Program-made: the position numbers and the translations under genes
Shown: one piece after another, positions 23,390 to 58,804 of the stretch
How the letters are laid out: the number at the start of each line of letters is the position of its first letter
Numbering within the stretch: the stretch's first letter is position 1
Source of the DNA: a virus
Length of the DNA: 64,000 nucleotides
Virus record (IMG/VR): IMGVR_UViG_3300040751_004835
Location: 27,375-91,374 of that record
Strand: one strand, 5' to 3'
Notes under the pieces: model-generated
What the model saw: the letters and a program-made list of their open reading frames with translations, nothing else
Database searches by the model: none
Told to the model about the DNA's origin: nothing

Positions 23390-23405
23390 ATAAATGAGGA
23401 AGATA

Positions 23406-23894
23406 ATGGATAACATAAAAGATTTTCAAAGTTTTCTCAACGAGAATGTTGAAAGAAGAGAACCATATTCTGCTACTGAGTGGATTAAGCAGAAAAGGAG
23501 AAGCATAGAGGCAGAAACCGGCGCTGAGAAAATCTATCAAATGACTTATGATGAAGGCGGGGCTTTACAGAGACTTGTAAGAGGCGCTGTAGAGGGACTG
23601 CAAAAATTGGGTCAGGGAATTGCTGATCTATTTGATTCTGGTAAGGCAGCAAGCATGGATGTTGAGGATCTAAGTAAAAACAAAGACCAGGTGTTATCCA
23701 GATGGGGAGATTCAATTAAAGCCTCTGGAAAAAACAAAAGGGGTGAATATGAGACTTTCTATAGAGATGCTATCCGAAAGGGTAAGTCGACTTTTGGTAA
23801 AGACTTTGATATAAACAACCCACAAGGAAGAGATCAACAGCTTTACAAGGATTACGTCTTTTCTGCCACAGACTATTTTGATTTAGAAAAATGA
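23406..23894 (+). CDS. late protein with N-terminal capsid-targeting-like tag
   Basis: 162 aa from the ATG at 23406, chosen because it gives the tag MDNIKDFQSFLNEN and the promoter spacing seen elsewhere; an upstream in-frame ATG at 23394 would add four residues. Predicted cleavage after FLNE (E13). The rest is basic and helical: a Gly-rich amphipathic stretch (LVRGAVEGLQKLGQGIADLF) and a C-terminal block with DFDINNPQGRDQQLYKDY. No family recognised. A packaged internal protein is the inference. Confidence 0.6.
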   Translation: MDNIKDFQSFLNENVERREPYSATEWIKQKRRSIEAETGAEKIYQMTYDEGGALQRLVRGAVEGLQKLGQGIADLFDSGKAASMDVEDLSKNKDQVLSRWGDSIKASGKNKRGEYETFYRDAIRKGKSTFGKDFDINNPQGRDQQLYKDYVFSATDYFDLEK

Positions 23895-27197: not shown

Positions 27198-27737
27198 GTG
27201 GAAAAAAGAATACAGAATTTCTCAGACTTCCTAAAATCTAGCTCTGTCAACGAAGGAGATGGGTTTGGAACCTTCCCTTTTTTGCTAGTGAAGGATGGTG
27301 ATATTTATAACTACCTTTTTCAATTAGAACTTGAGAATGGATCCCAAAAAGGATTTATGCTGGTAGTTGGTAAATATTCACAGTATGAGACAATGGAGGG
27401 ACCTAAAAATTCCTATGCAATTCTCAATGTAAATGAGATTGCCCCTGAAATCATAGAGGACATTGCTATTAAGAAATCAGAGATTCCTGACCTGAACGAT
27501 GTTAAGTTCACTCTTAAAGATAACGATTTAAGCAGATTCTTGGAGCAGGTATCCAAAGCTTTACTAAATTATCTTGAGAAAAATCCAAAAGTAATTCGTA
27601 TATTTGACGAAATGCAGGATAATATGGATATTGAAAACTATGAAGAGATGGTAAAATCCGTTTTGCTTTCTTTCTTAGGGCCAGAATGGTCTATGCAAGA
27701 AGGATCCCACAAGGGAACGTTCATAATCAGTAGATAA
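27198..27737 (+). CDS. late protein with N-terminal capsid-targeting-like tag
   Basis: 179 aa, GTG start. The tag is EKRIQNFSDFLKSSSVNEG: RI-x-x-F-x-D-F-L followed by a VNE site instead of LNE. The body is an alpha/beta protein with FPFLLVKDGDIYNYLFQLEL, later helices, and no recognisable catalytic motif. Its predicted cleavage would remove about 19 residues. It lies between the ligase-NMNAT gene and the mini-histone gene; likely a packaged or head-associated protein. Confidence 0.55.
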   Translation: MEKRIQNFSDFLKSSSVNEGDGFGTFPFLLVKDGDIYNYLFQLELENGSQKGFMLVVGKYSQYETMEGPKNSYAILNVNEIAPEIIEDIAIKKSEIPDLNDVKFTLKDNDLSRFLEQVSKALLNYLEKNPKVIRIFDEMQDNMDIENYEEMVKSVLLSFLGPEWSMQEGSHKGTFIISR

Positions 27738-32229: not shown

Positions 32230-32556
32230 TTATTTTTCTTCAGAGGTCTTGGCAGTTGGTGAAAGTTCTTCGTGTATTCTTTTCTTTAAATACTTTACCA
32301 GGTTTTTTGGAGCCTCGCCTCTTTTTACCATTTCGGAAAATTCCTGTTCTTCAGCTAGAGTATCTAAATAGTTATAAAGATCTGTGCTTTGGAACATTGA
32401 ATCAACTACCTGTGGGGTTTGCGTGTAAGCAGGTCTGTAGTTTCTAGAATTGACATTATCCTTGTACCATTCTCCCGGGACAACCACGCTTCCAGGTGCT
32501 GCTGAAATATAATATTCATTAAGGAAATTCTCGAAACTTTTGATCCTGCTATCCAT
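32230..32556 (-). CDS. late protein with N-terminal capsid-targeting-like tag
   Basis: 108 aa on the reverse strand, starting at the internal ATG at 32556. That choice gives the tag MDSRIKSFENFLNEYY and puts a GATATATA element just upstream; an in-frame ATG at 32592 would add 12 residues. The tag is near consensus (RIKSFENFLNE). The body is Pro/Tyr/Asn-rich then helical and charged (LVKYLKKRIHEELSP). Divergent from the polymerase gene and 11 nt from the amidase-like gene, with which it may be co-transcribed. Confidence 0.6.
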   Translation of the reverse strand: MDSRIKSFENFLNEYYISAAPGSVVVPGEWYKDNVNSRNYRPAYTQTPQVVDSMFQSTDLYNYLDTLAEEQEFSEMVKRGEAPKNLVKYLKKRIHEELSPTAKTSEEK

Positions 32557-32564
32557 AAGTATGT

Positions 32565-32574
32565 TGTATATATC
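32565..32574 (-). promoter_or_regulatory. putative late promoter element (reverse strand)
   Basis: GATATATACA read on the reverse strand, 18 nt before the ATG at 32556. It would drive the tagged gene and the amidase-like gene. Confidence 0.42.
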
Positions 32575-32616
32575 TTTTGAGATCCTCTCCAAAGATGTAC
32601 TCTCAAATTTTATTCC

Positions 32617-35620: not shown

Positions 35621-38095
35621 ATGTACGTAACTAAGAGAGACGGATCCAAAGAAGCGGTTAGATTCGATAAGATTTCTAATCGTGTAAAAAAGATGACTTA
35701 TGGCCTGAACAACGACTTTGTTGATTGGATGGGCATTTCACAAAAAGTAATCGCGGGAATTTATGATGGAATTTCGACCGGGGAGTTAGATAATCTAGCT
35801 GCTGAAACCTCAGCATCACTTATTCCAAGTCACCCAGACCATTCAATTTTGGCAGCAAGAATTGCTATTTCTAGATTGCATAAGTCTACAAAGAAGAAAT
35901 TTTCTGAAACGATTGAGGATTTATATTCCTACATCGACCCAGAAACTAATAAGCCTGCAGGTCTTATTGGTGATGAAACCTACGAGGTAATAATGAAGAA
36001 TAAGAAAAAATTTGATTCTGCCATTATACATGATAGGGATTTCAACTTCGAATACTTTGGATTCAAAACGCTTGAAAAAAGTTACCTCCTTAAAATGCAT
36101 GGAATGCCAGCAGAAACCCCACAACATATGTACATGCGTGTTGCGGTAGGTATCTGGGGAGATGATATTAAAAATGCTCTCAAAACATATGAGCTTCTCT
36201 CAACTCATATGATGACACATGCAACTCCAACGCTATTTAATTCCGGTACTAAAAAACCACAGCTATCTTCCTGTTTCCTTTTAACTATGCAGGAAGATTC
36301 TATTCCTGGAATCTACAAGACTCTTTCTGATGTTGCTATGATTTCTCAGAATGCTGGTGGTATTGGTCTTGCTATCCACAACGTAAGATCAACCGGTTCT
36401 TATATCAGAGGTACAAACGGTAAATCAAACGGTATTGTACCTATGCTTAAAGTATTCAACGAAACTGCAAGATATGTTGACCAAGGTGGCGGTAAAAGAA
36501 AAGGATCTTTTGCTATCTACTTAGAGCCATGGCACGCTGATGTTGAAGATTTCTTAGATCTAAGAAAGAACACAGGTAAGGAAGAAAGAAGAGCTAGAGA
36601 CCTGTTCCTTGCTCTTTGGGTTTCTGATCTATTCATGGAAAGGGTAGAAAAAGATGAAATGTGGTCTTTGTTCTCTCCTTCTGAGGTACCTGGACTTCAT
36701 GAAGTTTATGGACAGAAGTTCAATGAAATGTACATAGCAGCTGAAGAGGCTGGGAAAGCAAAGAAAACTATTAAAGCAAGGGAACTTTGGGGAAAGATTA
36801 TAGAGTCTCAAATTGAAACCGGAACTCCTTATATCCTTTACAAAGACTCTGCTAACAGGAAGTCAAACCAGCAGAATTTAGGGACCATCAAATCTTCGAA
36901 TTTATGCTGTGAGATTATCGAATACACAGACAAGGATGAACAAGCAGTTTGTAATTTGGCCTCCATCCCGGTTAACAAGTTCTTAAAATCTACAGATGCA
37001 AGAACATCAAAGATTACCAGAGGAAAATGTGAGGTTGATCATGACTACTTATATGAAGTATCATATCAAACTGCTGTAAATCTGAATCGGGTAATTGATG
37101 TAAACTTCTACCCTACTGTTGAGACTAAAAGATCCAACATGAGACATCGTCCGATTGGTATTGGAATTCAGGGTTTAGCGGATCTTTATGCAACCATGGG
37201 TATTCCATTTACTTCTGATGAGGCAAGGAAAATTAACTCCGAACTATTTGAGACGATCTACTTCGCATCAATGACAGCTTCTAAAGATCTAGCTAAGAAA
37301 TTTGGAGCTTATGAAACTTTTGAAGGATCTCCATTAAGTGAGGGTAAATTCCAATATAACTTATGGCAGGTAAATGACGAGGATCTCTCGGGAAGATGGG
37401 ATTGGAAAAAACTCAGAAAGGATGTTATGAAGCATGGAGTTAGAAACTCTCTTCTTATTGCTCCTATGCCAACAGCTTCGACAGCACAAATTATGGGTAA
37501 CAACGAAGCTTTTGAGCCCTTTACATCTAATATCTACACTAGGAGAACTCTAAGTGGCGAATATGTGATTATTAATAAGCACCTAGTTGGAGATCTAATT
37601 TCATTGGGACTTTGGAATGAGGATATGAAGAATATGATTATCATCCATAAAGGATCGGTACAAAATATTCCAAATATCCCTGATGACATCAAGGAGATCT
37701 ACAAAACAGTTTGGGAGATCAAGCAGAAGGATCTTATCGAAATGTCTGCTGATCGTGGTAAATTCATTTGCCAATCACAATCTCTAAACCTATTTATAGA
37801 GGGAGTTAATGCTGCCAAACTTACTGCAGCTCATTTCCATTCTTGGAAATTAGGTCTTAAAACTGGTATGTATTACCTAAGAACAAAAGCTGCAGTAGAT
37901 GCTCTTTCAGGTCTTGGTATTGACACGAGCAAATACAAAAAGGTAGAAGAAACTGCTCCAGCACCAAAACAAGTTGTTGTAGAACCTCAACCTAGAGTAG
38001 CAAACGAAGATCTCAAAGCTTTGGCAGAACAAACTATGAACGATCTTTCTTGTAGCTTGGACAATCCAGATGATTGTTTGTCTTGTGGTTCTTAA
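35621..38095 (+). CDS. nrdA: class I ribonucleotide reductase, large subunit
   Basis: 824 aa. N-terminal ATP-cone (YVTKRDGSKEAVRFDKISNR), redox Cys in LSSCFLL, catalytic site SSNLCCEIIEY (N, C, E), later AVCNLASIPVN, the finger PMPTASTAQIMGNNEAFEP, and a C-terminal CLSCGS Cys pair that is re-reduced by thioredoxin (a thioredoxin gene is at 59230). Slightly longer than E. coli NrdA (761 aa). Makes dNTPs for phage replication. No intein or intron seen. Confidence 0.95.
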   Translation: MYVTKRDGSKEAVRFDKISNRVKKMTYGLNNDFVDWMGISQKVIAGIYDGISTGELDNLAAETSASLIPSHPDHSILAARIAISRLHKSTKKKFSETIEDLYSYIDPETNKPAGLIGDETYEVIMKNKKKFDSAIIHDRDFNFEYFGFKTLEKSYLLKMHGMPAETPQHMYMRVAVGIWGDDIKNALKTYELLSTHMMTHATPTLFNSGTKKPQLSSCFLLTMQEDSIPGIYKTLSDVAMISQNAGGIGLAIHNVRSTGSYIRGTNGKSNGIVPMLKVFNETARYVDQGGGKRKGSFAIYLEPWHADVEDFLDLRKNTGKEERRARDLFLALWVSDLFMERVEKDEMWSLFSPSEVPGLHEVYGQKFNEMYIAAEEAGKAKKTIKARELWGKIIESQIETGTPYILYKDSANRKSNQQNLGTIKSSNLCCEIIEYTDKDEQAVCNLASIPVNKFLKSTDARTSKITRGKCEVDHDYLYEVSYQTAVNLNRVIDVNFYPTVETKRSNMRHRPIGIGIQGLADLYATMGIPFTSDEARKINSELFETIYFASMTASKDLAKKFGAYETFEGSPLSEGKFQYNLWQVNDEDLSGRWDWKKLRKDVMKHGVRNSLLIAPMPTASTAQIMGNNEAFEPFTSNIYTRRTLSGEYVIINKHLVGDLISLGLWNEDMKNMIIIHKGSVQNIPNIPDDIKEIYKTVWEIKQKDLIEMSADRGKFICQSQSLNLFIEGVNAAKLTAAHFHSWKLGLKTGMYYLRTKAAVDALSGLGIDTSKYKKVEETAPAPKQVVVEPQPRVANEDLKALAEQTMNDLSCSLDNPDDCLSCGS

Positions 38096-38109
38096 ATAAA
38101 TATACTACA

Positions 38110-38769
38110 ATGGAGAAGGTACGTAATTTTGAAAATTTTATTGCTATAAACGAAAGAGTTATCCCGGATAAACAAGGAGAGATCCTTGTTATTCTGGGAC
38201 CTCCGGGATCTGGTAAAGGAACTCTATCAAAGAAACTTGTTGATAGGAACAAATTTACCCATATTTCTACGGGAGAGCTTATTAGAAATTCTGATGATAA
38301 GGAATTGAAGAAAACCGTGGAGAAAGGGGATTTCATACCTGATCGGGTTATGGTGAGGATGTTAAGAAAGGCACTAGGAAAGGCTGATTTGGAGAACGGG
38401 ATTATCATTGATGGATTTCCAAGAAACGTTAAACAGGCTAAGCTACTTGATTCCCTTCTTGGAAAGTTAGGTGTGGGTTTGAACCATGTGATCTATCTAG
38501 ATTTGGAAGAGGAAAAAGCCAAAGATAGAATCATGAAAAGAGCCGAGAAAGAAGATCGTGCTGACGATAAGGATCCAGAAATCATATCCAAGAGATTCAA
38601 GGAATATAAGGAGAAAACTTTACCCTTAGTCAAGAAGTATAAAAAAAGCAGAAAGCTTGTTAAGGTAGATGCTTCTAAAAAAATAGAAAGGGTCTACAAA
38701 CAATTGCTTGACAAAATCGGGATTAGTTACAAACCTCAGGATGAAGAAGGGAAAGAAAAAGCTTCCTGA
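38110..38769 (+). CDS. adk: adenylate kinase with N-terminal capsid-targeting-like tag
   Basis: 219 aa from the ATG at 38110. Residues 1-15 (MEKVRNFENFIAINE) are the tag; NFENFIAINE is close to TYQEFIAE of T4 internal proteins, and the predicted cut is after INE. The rest is a complete short-LID adenylate kinase: P-loop GPPGSGKGT, THISTGELIR, DGFPRNVKQA, and LID region around RIMKRAEKEDRADD. Converts AMP + ATP to 2 ADP. Following nrdA it could simply serve nucleotide pools, but the tag suggests it is carried in the virion. A TAAATATAC sequence lies just upstream. Confidence 0.88.
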   Translation: MEKVRNFENFIAINERVIPDKQGEILVILGPPGSGKGTLSKKLVDRNKFTHISTGELIRNSDDKELKKTVEKGDFIPDRVMVRMLRKALGKADLENGIIIDGFPRNVKQAKLLDSLLGKLGVGLNHVIYLDLEEEKAKDRIMKRAEKEDRADDKDPEIISKRFKEYKEKTLPLVKKYKKSRKLVKVDASKKIERVYKQLLDKIGISYKPQDEEGKEKAS

Positions 38770-53651: not shown

Positions 53652-54797
53652 ATGTCTGAAGTACAAGACCTTAAGGAAAAAATTGAAAGGCTCACTGCTT
53701 TAAAGAACGAGCTTAAAAACGAAGAACAAGCCATTAAGCTAACCATGAACTCTATCTATGGAGCGATTGGTAATAGCTGGTTTGTTTGCTTCAATCCTGA
53801 GGTTGCTGAGGCTGTGACTTTGCAAGGACAAGATTTGATCAAACACTCTGAAAAAATCCTCCACAAGTACTTCCACGAATTTTGGCACAAGGATAAAGAG
53901 CTACACGATAAGCTTGGACTTACTAATGTCAAAAAAATACACCGCCCGATGGTAGTGTATGGGGATACTGACTCCAATTATGTCACCTTCCAGGAAGTCG
54001 TTGCTTCTTGTGAAGGATGGGAAGGAAGTGATAAAGATTTAATCCTGGCAATCAACGAGAATCGTTTGGTTGGCTACCTCAAAAAGTGTTTTGACATCTA
54101 TGCTGAAAAATGGGGCACAGATAACTACCAAGACTTTGAGATGGAGACTCTTTCTATCAACGGGATTTTCCTTGGTAAGAAAAAGTACGTTACAAACATT
54201 GTCTACTCAGATGGTGTGCATTCGGAACCACTTAGCTCTATCAAAACAACGGGGGTTGAAATGGTAAAGGGTGGTACTCCATCATTTGTAAGGGAAAAAC
54301 TCATTTATCTGACCAAGTTTATTTTTAGAAAAGGTGGTGGTTTTGAGCTACGAGAATTTGTACAGGAACTGAAGGCTATTAAGAAAGACTTTAAAGCACA
54401 GGAGCCGGAAAACATCTCGGTTGCTGTAAATGTCAATAATTACCAAAAGTTTGTTTTAAACGACACAACTTCACTGGAGGTTGCTAAGGGGTGTCCGATT
54501 CATGTTAGAGCATCTGCTTATCACAACTTTCTACTTAATGCAACCAAGTATAAAGACAAGTATCCACTTATCGGTGGCGGTGAAAAGGTAAGATTCTATT
54601 TTGTTAAAGTTAAGAATCCAGGAGACAATAACGTTTTTGCTTATTCCCAGGGTACTCATCCTTACGAATTTGCACCACCAATAGATTTCGATCAGCAGTT
54701 TACCAAAACAATTTTGGATCCAATCAATCGGTTCATAGAGGTGATGGGGCACAATAAAATATCCCCTAACCTCTTTATGATTAACACATTATTCTAA
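53652..54797 (+). CDS. 43: family-B DNA polymerase, C-terminal half (motifs B and C, thumb)
   Basis: 381 aa. It opens with a charged helix (VQDLKEKIERLTALKNELKN) leading into fingers motif B, KLTMNSIYGAIGN (K29, N33, Y36), then palm motif C, VYGDTDSNYV (D105, D107), and a thumb region to the end. The exonuclease and motif A are encoded at 32617-34029, about 20 kb upstream. The break falls between the two finger helices, and both broken ends are charged helices that could pair. Active enzyme should need both products. Start codon has an A-rich leader 4 nt after the clamp gene. Confidence 0.9.
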   Translation: MSEVQDLKEKIERLTALKNELKNEEQAIKLTMNSIYGAIGNSWFVCFNPEVAEAVTLQGQDLIKHSEKILHKYFHEFWHKDKELHDKLGLTNVKKIHRPMVVYGDTDSNYVTFQEVVASCEGWEGSDKDLILAINENRLVGYLKKCFDIYAEKWGTDNYQDFEMETLSINGIFLGKKKYVTNIVYSDGVHSEPLSSIKTTGVEMVKGGTPSFVREKLIYLTKFIFRKGGGFELREFVQELKAIKKDFKAQEPENISVAVNVNNYQKFVLNDTTSLEVAKGCPIHVRASAYHNFLLNATKYKDKYPLIGGGEKVRFYFVKVKNPGDNNVFAYSQGTHPYEFAPPIDFDQQFTKTILDPINRFIEVMGHNKISPNLFMINTLF

Positions 54798-55001
54798 ATG
54801 GGATTTAATAAAAAATTTTTACCGGACCTCTCCTCTCTAAAAGCAATTAGAGAAAGATATGAGGATGATCAAATGTTCCTACGCATTTATTTACATTCTC
54901 CAGATGCGCTTATAGGTTCATCTGAATCAATCGACTACCTTAAATCAATAGACCAAAAATACCATGAAAATGAAGAAGAAAGCAATTCACGCAGAATATA
55001 G
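54798..55001 (+). CDS. small hypothetical protein
   Basis: 67 aa, starting directly after the polymerase stop (TAA then ATG). Basic first half and acidic end (FLPDLSSLKAIRERYEDDQM; YHENEEESNSRRI). Overlaps the next gene by 38 nt. No family recognised. Confidence 0.5.
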   Translation: MGFNKKFLPDLSSLKAIRERYEDDQMFLRIYLHSPDALIGSSESIDYLKSIDQKYHENEEESNSRRI

Positions 55002-56770: not shown

Positions 56771-58261
56771 ATGAAGAAGGTAACCCCTGCTCTTAATTTC
56801 GAATCTTTTCTTAACGAAGCTAAGGATAACGGGATGGTTGACATCCTTATTTTAAGCGGGGAGTCTAAGCCCAGCAAAACTGCAAAATCTTTTCTTGAAG
56901 AATGTGGAAAAATGGACATACCGTGTAACGTGGTAAATGTCAACAATGTGGTGTTGGAAAAAATATACAACGGACACATTGTTAAATTTTCTGATGGTGA
57001 CGAGACTAAAGAGATCTTAATTAAACCTGAGACTACTGCTATAATTCCTAGAAGAGGTGTAATTACAAACTCCTATACTAAGCAGATAATGAGAGATCTA
57101 GAAGCTGCTAGATACTTTTGTGTCAACACATTAGAATCCATTGAAATCTGTGAAAGTAAATACCTTACCTCAAAAGTTCTGGAGGAAGAAGGACTGCCAA
57201 TCCCAAGATATTCTTTGGTTAATGGAATAGATGGACTTGATAGAGCATTGGAAGAAGTTGGTGGTGAATTCCCGGTTGTCATGAAACTTCTTTCTGGAGC
57301 ACAAGGAATCGGAGTTTCCATTGTTGATTCATATGCTTCTCTTAAATCAGTTTATCAAACTATTGAGAAGCTTGATCCGGATGGAGAAATTCTGTTACAA
57401 GAAAAAATTGATTCGAACTTTGATGTTAGAGTCCAAGTGATTGTAAAGAAGTTTGATCCACTAAATCCTGGTGCTGAGAATTGCGAAGTATTAGGGGCAA
57501 TGAAAAGAGAAGCGGTTGAGAAGGACTTTAGAACTAATTATACTTTAGGCGGAGAAGTTTCTGCTTATGAAATAACTGAGGAGATTGAAAGAATAGCTTG
57601 TGAAGCTGCAAATGCTGTTTCGTGCCACTGGTGTGGAGTTGATATAATGATAGATTCTAAAACCAACAAGCCTTATATCTTGGAGGTAAACTCATCACCA
57701 GGAACGGATGGAATTTCACAAGCAATAGGAAAACCCATTGTGGATGATGTGATTAACTATGTCGTTAAAAAAGATAATTGGTCCCAATCTAAGCTTGAAG
57801 TTGGGTATTTAGAAACTATTGAGATTCCTCAAATTGGTAAAATGGTAGCTAAGTTTGATACCGGAAATGGATCTACTGCTTCCTCAATACATGCTGATGA
57901 AATATCTGAAGATGGTGATACACTTACCTGGAAGATAGGAGACAATGAAATGAGTGGTAAGATTATCGGACGGACAAAAACCGAAATTGGTAGAGGTACG
58001 GAAGAAAGACCTATTGTAAAAATGGATATTCTTTTCAATGGAGTTAAGATTCCAGGAGTTAAGGTTGCTCCAACCGACAGGATTTCAAAAAGTACCCCAT
58101 TCTTAGCAAACAGACCGCTGATGAAAAAGCTGGGGGTAATGGTCAATCCACACAAAGCATTTGTAGTCTCTGATCGTATTGATGACTATTCACCTATGCA
58201 AGCTAAAGGTGATCCTTATGGAGGAATTGAATTTATGGAAATTTCTGACCAGGAGGATTAA
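56771..58261 (+). CDS. RimK-type ATP-grasp ligase fused to RimB-like retropepsin, with capsid-targeting-like tag
   Basis: 496 aa in three parts. Residues 1-15: tag MKKVTPALNFESFLNE, cut expected after FLNE. Residues ~20-335: RimK-type ATP-grasp: AARYFCVNTLESIEICESKY, FPVVMKLLSGAQGIGVS, ILLQEKID and the metal site DIMIDSKTNKPYILEVNSSP. Residues ~345-485: aspartic-protease-like domain with AKFDTGNGSTASSIHA (D363-T-G), typical of the retropepsin-like ATP-dependent zinc protease/RimB family. In bacteria RimK adds glutamates to ribosomal protein S6 and RimB-type proteins trim them. Both in one tagged chain suggests delivery into the host to remodel S6 or another target. Confidence 0.85.
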   Translation: MKKVTPALNFESFLNEAKDNGMVDILILSGESKPSKTAKSFLEECGKMDIPCNVVNVNNVVLEKIYNGHIVKFSDGDETKEILIKPETTAIIPRRGVITNSYTKQIMRDLEAARYFCVNTLESIEICESKYLTSKVLEEEGLPIPRYSLVNGIDGLDRALEEVGGEFPVVMKLLSGAQGIGVSIVDSYASLKSVYQTIEKLDPDGEILLQEKIDSNFDVRVQVIVKKFDPLNPGAENCEVLGAMKREAVEKDFRTNYTLGGEVSAYEITEEIERIACEAANAVSCHWCGVDIMIDSKTNKPYILEVNSSPGTDGISQAIGKPIVDDVINYVVKKDNWSQSKLEVGYLETIEIPQIGKMVAKFDTGNGSTASSIHADEISEDGDTLTWKIGDNEMSGKIIGRTKTEIGRGTEERPIVKMDILFNGVKIPGVKVAPTDRISKSTPFLANRPLMKKLGVMVNPHKAFVVSDRIDDYSPMQAKGDPYGGIEFMEISDQED

Positions 58262-58289: not shown

Positions 58290-58469
58290 ATGGCAAAAGG
58301 AGAAGATAAAACAGAAAAAATCCAGGTCCTGTTATCAACAGAAGACCTGGAAGAACTAAGTAAAAAGATTTCTAAGAAGGCTTTGACCTCTGGGGAACCC
58401 CCAGTTTCAATTTCTCATTATGTAAGGGGTCTAATCAGAAGAGATCTTGGAAGATCTGAGAGAGATTAA
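58290..58469 (+). CDS. small ribbon-helix-helix-like protein
   Basis: 59 aa. The strand KIQVLLSTED, helix LEELSKKISKKAL and helix VSISHYVRGLIRRDL give the layout of an RHH DNA-binding domain (CopG/Arc type). Possibly a regulator or a small DNA-binding late protein. Inside the gene a 12-bp interrupted hairpin lies at 58322-58350. Its stop codon interlocks with that of the convergent gene (TTAA). Confidence 0.58.
   Translation: MAKGEDKTEKIQVLLSTEDLEELSKKISKKALTSGEPPVSISHYVRGLIRRDLGRSERD
58322..58350 (+). repeat. interrupted inverted repeat inside the RHH-like gene
   Basis: CCAGGTC-CTGTT / AACAG-AA-GACCTGG: 7 + 5 bp arms, a 2-nt bulge and an ATC loop. It lacks a T run, so it is not a terminator. 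It could be an RNA hairpin or, being so close to a DNA-binding gene, an operator. Confidence 0.55.
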
Positions 58470-58804
58470 TCTCTGTTATTAAGAAAATCTTCAAACCTCA
58501 TTACTCTACCGGGTGATGAGGTTTCTTGTGATTGCTGAACTGGCTCTACTGGAGCAGGTTCCGATGGGATCTCCGCTGTAGTAGGTTCTTGTAGAGAATC
58601 TGTTTGGTCGACTGGGTCGGTTTGATCCATTTGCTGTGGTTCTGTAGTTTCCGTAGGATCAACAGACATTTCTGGGGTTTCCTCCTCAGCGTCGGTTTGT
58701 TCAAAATCAGTCACCTCGGGGGTAAGTTCTTCTTGTTCTGTAGGCTGTTCGTTAGTAAAATCAACCTGATCTTCGATTTGTGTATCTCTTTCTTCTGTAG
58801 ACAT
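58466..58804 (-). CDS. acidic disordered protein with C-terminal tag-like peptide
   Basis: 112 aa on the reverse strand. Residues 1-95 are almost only Glu, Asp, Gln, Pro, Thr and Ser (TEEETPEMSVDPTETTEPQQ style), so disordered and strongly acidic. The last residues, SPGRVMRFEDFLNNRD, carry the tag core RVMRFEDFLN but at the C-terminus and without the final E. Could be a scaffold/core-type or DNA-mimic internal protein. A GATATATA element lies 34 nt upstream on its strand. Convergent with the RHH-like gene. Confidence 0.58.
   Translation of the reverse strand: MSTEERDTQIEDQVDFTNEQPTEQEELTPEVTDFEQTDAEEETPEMSVDPTETTEPQQMDQTDPVDQTDSLQEPTTAEIPSEPAPVEPVQQSQETSSPGRVMRFEDFLNNRD

Follow-up and report, generated by a model that had tools for sequence, protein, structure and literature searches.

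A stretch of viral DNA of 64,000 nucleotides (positions 27,375 to 91,374 of IMG/VR record IMGVR_UViG_3300040751_004835, here called the window) was found to encode a fusion enzyme in which a tag resembling the capsid-targeting sequences of T4 precedes a RimK-family ligase and a retropepsin-like domain, and which, judged by its sequence, is probably injected at infection. The features are listed in Table 1. In the mechanism that we propose the first 16 residues would act as a T4-like capsid-targeting sequence by which the protein attaches to the core of the prohead, a gp21-type prohead protease would then cleave after E16, and the mature ligase-protease would be ejected along with the DNA. The cytoplasm would supply ATP and glutamate, with which the RimK domain would extend a host protein at its C-terminal end. 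The glutamate tails would be trimmed or reset by the retropepsin domain, working as a dimer. The likeliest host target would be ribosomal protein S6. As a whole, this picture of a virion-packaged, injected writer and trimmer of host protein tails, most likely those of S6, is the best explanation that we can offer, and we give it about an even chance of being right. For the window protein we infer packaging, cleavage, injection and both enzyme activities; the confidence attached to the single steps differs and is given with the evidence below.

Table 1. Features of the fusion enzyme gene (window coordinates; residue numbers refer to the encoded protein)
Feature	Position	Strand	Length	Basis
Fusion enzyme: N-terminal tag, RimK-family ATP-grasp ligase and C-terminal retropepsin-like domain	56771..58261	+	496 aa	
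Capsid-targeting/cleavage-like tag F10-E-S-F13-L14-N15-E16	56798..56818	+		Conservation, T4 capsid-targeting determinants; prohead-protease cleavage predicted to follow E16 (base 56818)
RimK-family ligase region, residues 24-334	56840..57772	+		Pfam match, fold match, invariant catalytic residues
Retropepsin-like domain, residues 345-466 (PF05618/DUF785/RloA-RimB superfamily)	57803..58168	+		Profiles, predicted fold
Active-site motif D363-T-G-N366	57857..57868	+		Aligned with RloA-type DTGA

The reading frame is intact and starts with ATG. Of 38 IMG/VR loci, nearly all contained a full-length relative, with 57-96% identity. A preliminary description of this DNA had recognized a RimK part, a retropepsin-like part with D363-T-G and a tag, and all three were confirmed by profiles, predicted folds and conservation. 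Profile matches placed the RimK part first and the retropepsin-like domain after it. Structure prediction, which had been suggested as a check, recovered both the RimK fold and the retropepsin fold. The whole-chain model had a mean pLDDT of 75.5; the very low values (below 50) of residues 1-18 are what would be expected of a flexible extension.

In the ligase region Pfam RimK (PF08443) matched residues 129-330 (E = 5e-32), and the cut-off of TIGR00768, the model of RimK-family alpha-L-glutamate ligases, was passed (146.7 bits against 143.4). The best structural matches of the whole-chain model were the RimK enzymes of E. coli and Pseudomonas (5zct, E = 9e-22; 7qyr). These share with the phage protein the fold and the conserved ATP, Mg and glutamate residues, but they are only about 25% identical to it and have neither the tag nor a fused protease domain. 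Residues K130, K172, E211, R246, D291, E305 and N307 were invariant in 23 family members, and in profile alignments they correspond to K100, K141, E178, R203, D248, E260 and N262 of E. coli RimK, positions which, from the roles known in the ATP-grasp family, we take to bind ATP, Mg and glutamate.

The retropepsin-like peptidase profile matched residues 345-466 weakly, and PF05618 scored 19.8 against a cut-off of 27; this cut-off was passed only by relatives (Mosig, YerA41, L102, L103 and L105, 30-37 bits). Profile searches with the domain detected the RloA2 structure (E = 1.6e-10) and a DUF785 structure (E = 9e-8). When the C-terminal domain was modelled alone, as a monomer, the mean pLDDT was 81.2, and Foldseek matched the model to 2pma (E = 4e-8), to RloA2 (9g59) and to HIV protease (E = 1e-4). 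D363-T-G was invariant across 28 sequences. Thus in both domains the catalytic residues were present on alignment, intact here and invariant among relatives, and it is very likely that the protein is a catalytically competent ligase-protease fusion with the two predicted activities. The closest solved structures, 2pma and the RloA retropepsin-like peptidases (9g58, 9g59), differ in their setting: RloA enzymes are secreted or periplasmic and carry DTGA, whereas the phage domain carries DTGN and is fused behind a ligase domain. The Asn that replaces Ala after DTG could, to judge from the alignment, matter for specificity.

The fusion itself is not new, having been published for phages in 2008 and for bacteria in 2025. 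Monier et al. (2008) described rimK in marine T4-like contigs, several with a C-terminal DUF785 (PMC2530865). These proteins agree with the window protein in domain order, T4-like setting and nearness to regA and DNA polymerase, and in a contig of that study regA lies beside rimK (PMC2530865). The fusion gene of phage Mosig adjoins, at the corresponding place, a gene annotated as translation repressor. The window protein thus meets the description of RimK with a C-terminal DUF785 in a T4-like replication cluster. No description of the N-terminal tag, of a retropepsin identity or of virion packaging was found in the passages of that paper that were examined (PMC2530865). The bacterial RimBK hybrid of Desulfotalea psychrophila likewise combines RimK and a retropepsin-like domain in one chain, but in it the retropepsin is N-terminal, the protein is cellular and no tag has been reported; the RimBK order can be ruled out for the phage protein, in which it is reversed. 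Bacterial ownership of the RimK-retropepsin order was considered and rejected: the five MAG matches reaching the second domain all lay on contigs of 3.6-13 kb, and the L102 and L104 MAG contigs, examined in full, look phage-derived. A review of jumbo phages names other peptide ligases of the ATP-grasp type that might modify translation and does not mention RimK.

We think it somewhat more probable than not that the injected enzyme modifies the tails of host proteins. The choice of S6 is plausible but the least certain part of our reading, and we consider it less likely than not: two precedents make S6 the obvious first candidate, but it finds no support in the equivalog models. In the work of Little et al. 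(2025) RimB was shown to be a RimK-stimulating retropepsin that takes glutamates off S6, and the RimBK hybrid of D. psychrophila cleaves polyglutamylated RpsF (S6), so that both biochemical precedents for the domain pair act on polyglutamylated S6 (PMC11957791). The cut-offs of NF007764 (ribosomal S6--L-glutamate ligase RimK) and NF052261 (RimB) were, however, missed by wide margins (95.7 against 331 bits and 12.2 against 200 bits, respectively). An S6 gene was not encoded in 16 related records. A strong competitor, which we rate somewhat below an even chance, is that the enzyme is packaged and injected but does not have S6 as its target. It would then tag another host protein at its C-terminus, for example a factor of defence or translation, or synthesize free poly-glutamate, and the retropepsin would serve to tune the ligase. 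The protein fails the S6-ligase equivalog yet passes the broader RimK family, which includes enzymes making other products; among the matches were MptN and CofF, which make coenzyme tails. Moreover, RimK is stimulated by RimB in making poly-alpha-glutamate, and the D. psychrophila RimBK was not observed to glutamylate the RpsF with which it was tested (PMC11957791). Apart from the S6 precedents, this alternative is weakened by the locus, which points to no other target.

The proposal of packaging starts from the tag, the strongest element of the case. The N-terminus of T4 IPIII is MKTYQEFIAE. Its first ten residues suffice for packaging, residues 4 and 7 govern targeting, residues 8 and 10 govern processing, and the T4 prohead protease gp21 cleaves following L/I-x-E (PMC9026906). 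The spacing F10-x-x-F13-L14-x-E16 of the window protein is that of the IPIII sequence, a spacing equal to that of the N-terminal capsid-targeting sequences of the T4 internal proteins IPI-III and Alt, and E16 fits the gp21 cut site. The pattern thus corresponds to a T4-type capsid-targeting sequence as far as sequence can tell, with an aromatic residue, another three positions on and then L/I-x-E near the N-terminus.

The tag was present in all 27 distinct close relatives. Four phage groups (the close relatives with 57-96% identity, Mosig-like phages, the L104 group and the L103/L105 group) together gave 106 distinct intact N-termini, and 102 of these had the pattern [F/Y]xx[F/Y/L][L/I]xE. Among the 102, position 7 was always E, position 5 L or I, position 1 F or Y and position 4 F, Y or L, while positions 2, 3 and 6 varied freely and position 8 was mostly A, E or S. 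Three of the four exceptions had F-S-E-V-I-R-E and one was short of a residue; a fifth group (L102) retained I-I-x-E alone. Mean conservation was 0.79 in the tag region compared with 0.39 in the residues before and 0.49 in those after it. Synonymous variation among relatives at the F, L, N and E codons indicates that conservation acts at the protein level. The packaging-type tag ending in FLNE that had been noticed at the outset therefore follows T4 targeting and prohead-protease logic, and it is conserved far beyond the window phage. The Mosig enzyme begins with MQVQPFKNYLEE, where the predicted cut would leave Ala13 first, and it is the sole tagged N-terminus among 184 called genes. The RimK of phage Melnitz, which has no retropepsin domain, begins with KFSQFITE. 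The tag was absent from cyanophage RimK proteins and from the YerA41 homologue. Chance occurrence can be ruled out, since the narrow motif gave one match in about 24,000 internal positions of the window's record and was kept across four groups. Genome-wide enrichment at N-termini was significant in the window's record (Fisher p = 0.018) and in the related record G013 (8.7e-5), and not significant in G008 and Mosig; the statistics being weak in some genomes, it is conservation rather than enrichment that makes the case. The literature searched gave no description of RimK with a capsid-targeting tag.

A PF03420 gp21-type prohead protease was found in 16 of 30 related records and a gp23-type capsid protein in 19 of 30. 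Neither gene was seen in the window's own record, a 91-kb fragment. In G008 and G013 the protease was fused to a scaffold of YSEYLAE-like repeats, in which the tag motif was matched 12-14 times; the tag of these phages thus resembles the scaffold itself. Protease-scaffold fusions with about a dozen YSEYLAE-type repeats, each a potential cut site, were observed at L071:13463-15493 and L084:12884-14854. Data on virions come from a study of Yersinia phage YerA41, which detected g112, 'Ribosomal protein modification protein', in particles by LC-MS/MS and placed its expression in the middle phase (PMC7354516). We equated g112 with YerA41_066 of GenBank, a 36% identical homologue annotated as structural protein, through gene order (RNR alpha is g110/064). 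This homologue has both domains of the window protein but lacks the F-x-x-F-L-x-E tag, and its close viral relatives were not found in IMG/VR. As the particle list includes many replication enzymes (PMC7354516), carry-over is possible.

Several genes near the fusion gene deserve mention. DNA polymerase B (53652-55001) is seemingly split, a 381-aa C-terminal piece (PF00136) forming its own gene, likewise in all 38 close loci. A conserved 253-aa protein, encoded nearby in most of these loci, was taken to be the sliding clamp. Directly downstream (58290-58469, + strand) lies the gene of a small protein, 59-75 aa in relatives, with the conserved sequence EKIQVLLSxEDL...KISKxAL...YVRKLIRRDL; by its sequence it could be a ribbon-helix-helix-like regulator. 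Beside the fusion gene, on the opposite strand (58466-58804), a very acidic and probably disordered protein is encoded, which has about 20 distinct relatives; Asp+Glu make up 28-54% of these proteins. Its C-terminal end is formed by a conserved R-V-x-x-[F/Y]-x-[D/E]-[F/Y]-like motif, tag-like but without the cut-site glutamate, and the protein is a possible core-binding partner or substrate.

Packaging and cutting of the fusion enzyme, as predicted from its sequence, appear likely, with a confidence only slightly below that in its catalytic competence. It is improbable that the gene is an ordinary auxiliary gene expressed in the infected cell, with a tag-like N-terminus that is not used for packaging. 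Such a role would suit the position near the C-terminal DNA polymerase part in 38 of 38 close loci, which is a replication cluster and not a late-gene region, as well as the middle-phase expression of the YerA41 homologue (PMC7354516) and the existence of the untagged cyanophage proteins, but it would not account for T4 targeting logic retained in nearly all N-termini while the non-critical positions drift, for a scaffold built of the tag motif in relatives, or for the unique tagged N-terminus in Mosig. Less probable still is a function inside the assembling head, where the enzyme, built into the core, would edit core or capsid peptides ending in glutamate after prohead-protease cutting: products of this protease do end in Glu (PMC9026906), the kind of end that RimK extends, and the adjoining gene encodes the acidic protein, whose C-terminus bears the aromatic motif as well. 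But ligation requires ATP, and a sealed head would soon run short of it; moreover, the acidic neighbour was encountered in related phages only, none being annotated beside the Mosig gene.

Besides the fusion enzyme, which we prefer to regard as packaged and injected, other proteins with similar N-termini were noticed. An adenylate kinase (38074-38769, + strand; PF00406, E = 1e-37) has the tag-like N-terminus MEKVRNFENFIAINE. In relatives the tag is clearer, for instance MESKIKAFNEFLNE/RELP, and the kinase is a candidate for another packaged enzyme. Two proteins without a recognized family, encoded at 23394-23894 (+) and 32230-32592 (-), carry the N-terminal tags FQSFLNE and FENFLNE and are candidate packaged cargo. 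At L102:1774-2772, after the fusion gene, a nucleotidyltransferase-like protein starts with MNKTYQQFLKE/N, very close to the T4 capsid-targeting sequence.

The fusion enzyme is common in marine phages, at least 468 relatives having been detected in one search, and the tagged members include that of an isolated phage, Mosig, which infects Pelagibacter ubique HTCC1062. With this phage at hand packaging, cutting and target are directly testable. T4 Alt, an ADP-ribosyltransferase acting on RNA polymerase, is a precedent for phage-injected enzymes that retune host transcription. The phage protein would be injected as Alt is but would catalyse another kind of reaction, its cargo domains being unrelated to Alt, and the sequence data strongly suggest the packaging part of this analogy. 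The preliminary description had gone further and envisaged a reset of host ribosome modification before any phage protein is made. In its broad form, that several T4-like and jumbo phage groups inject a writer and eraser of glutamate tails which reprogram ribosomes via S6 before phage genes are translated, we consider this idea rather doubtful. Were it true, we would know of no earlier case in which an enzyme delivered by the capsid was shown to modify ribosomes. If packaged, the RimK-retropepsin protein would extend the Alt idea from transcription to translation, and the logic of its tag would offer a simple way to recognize further injected enzymes among phages that are uncultured.
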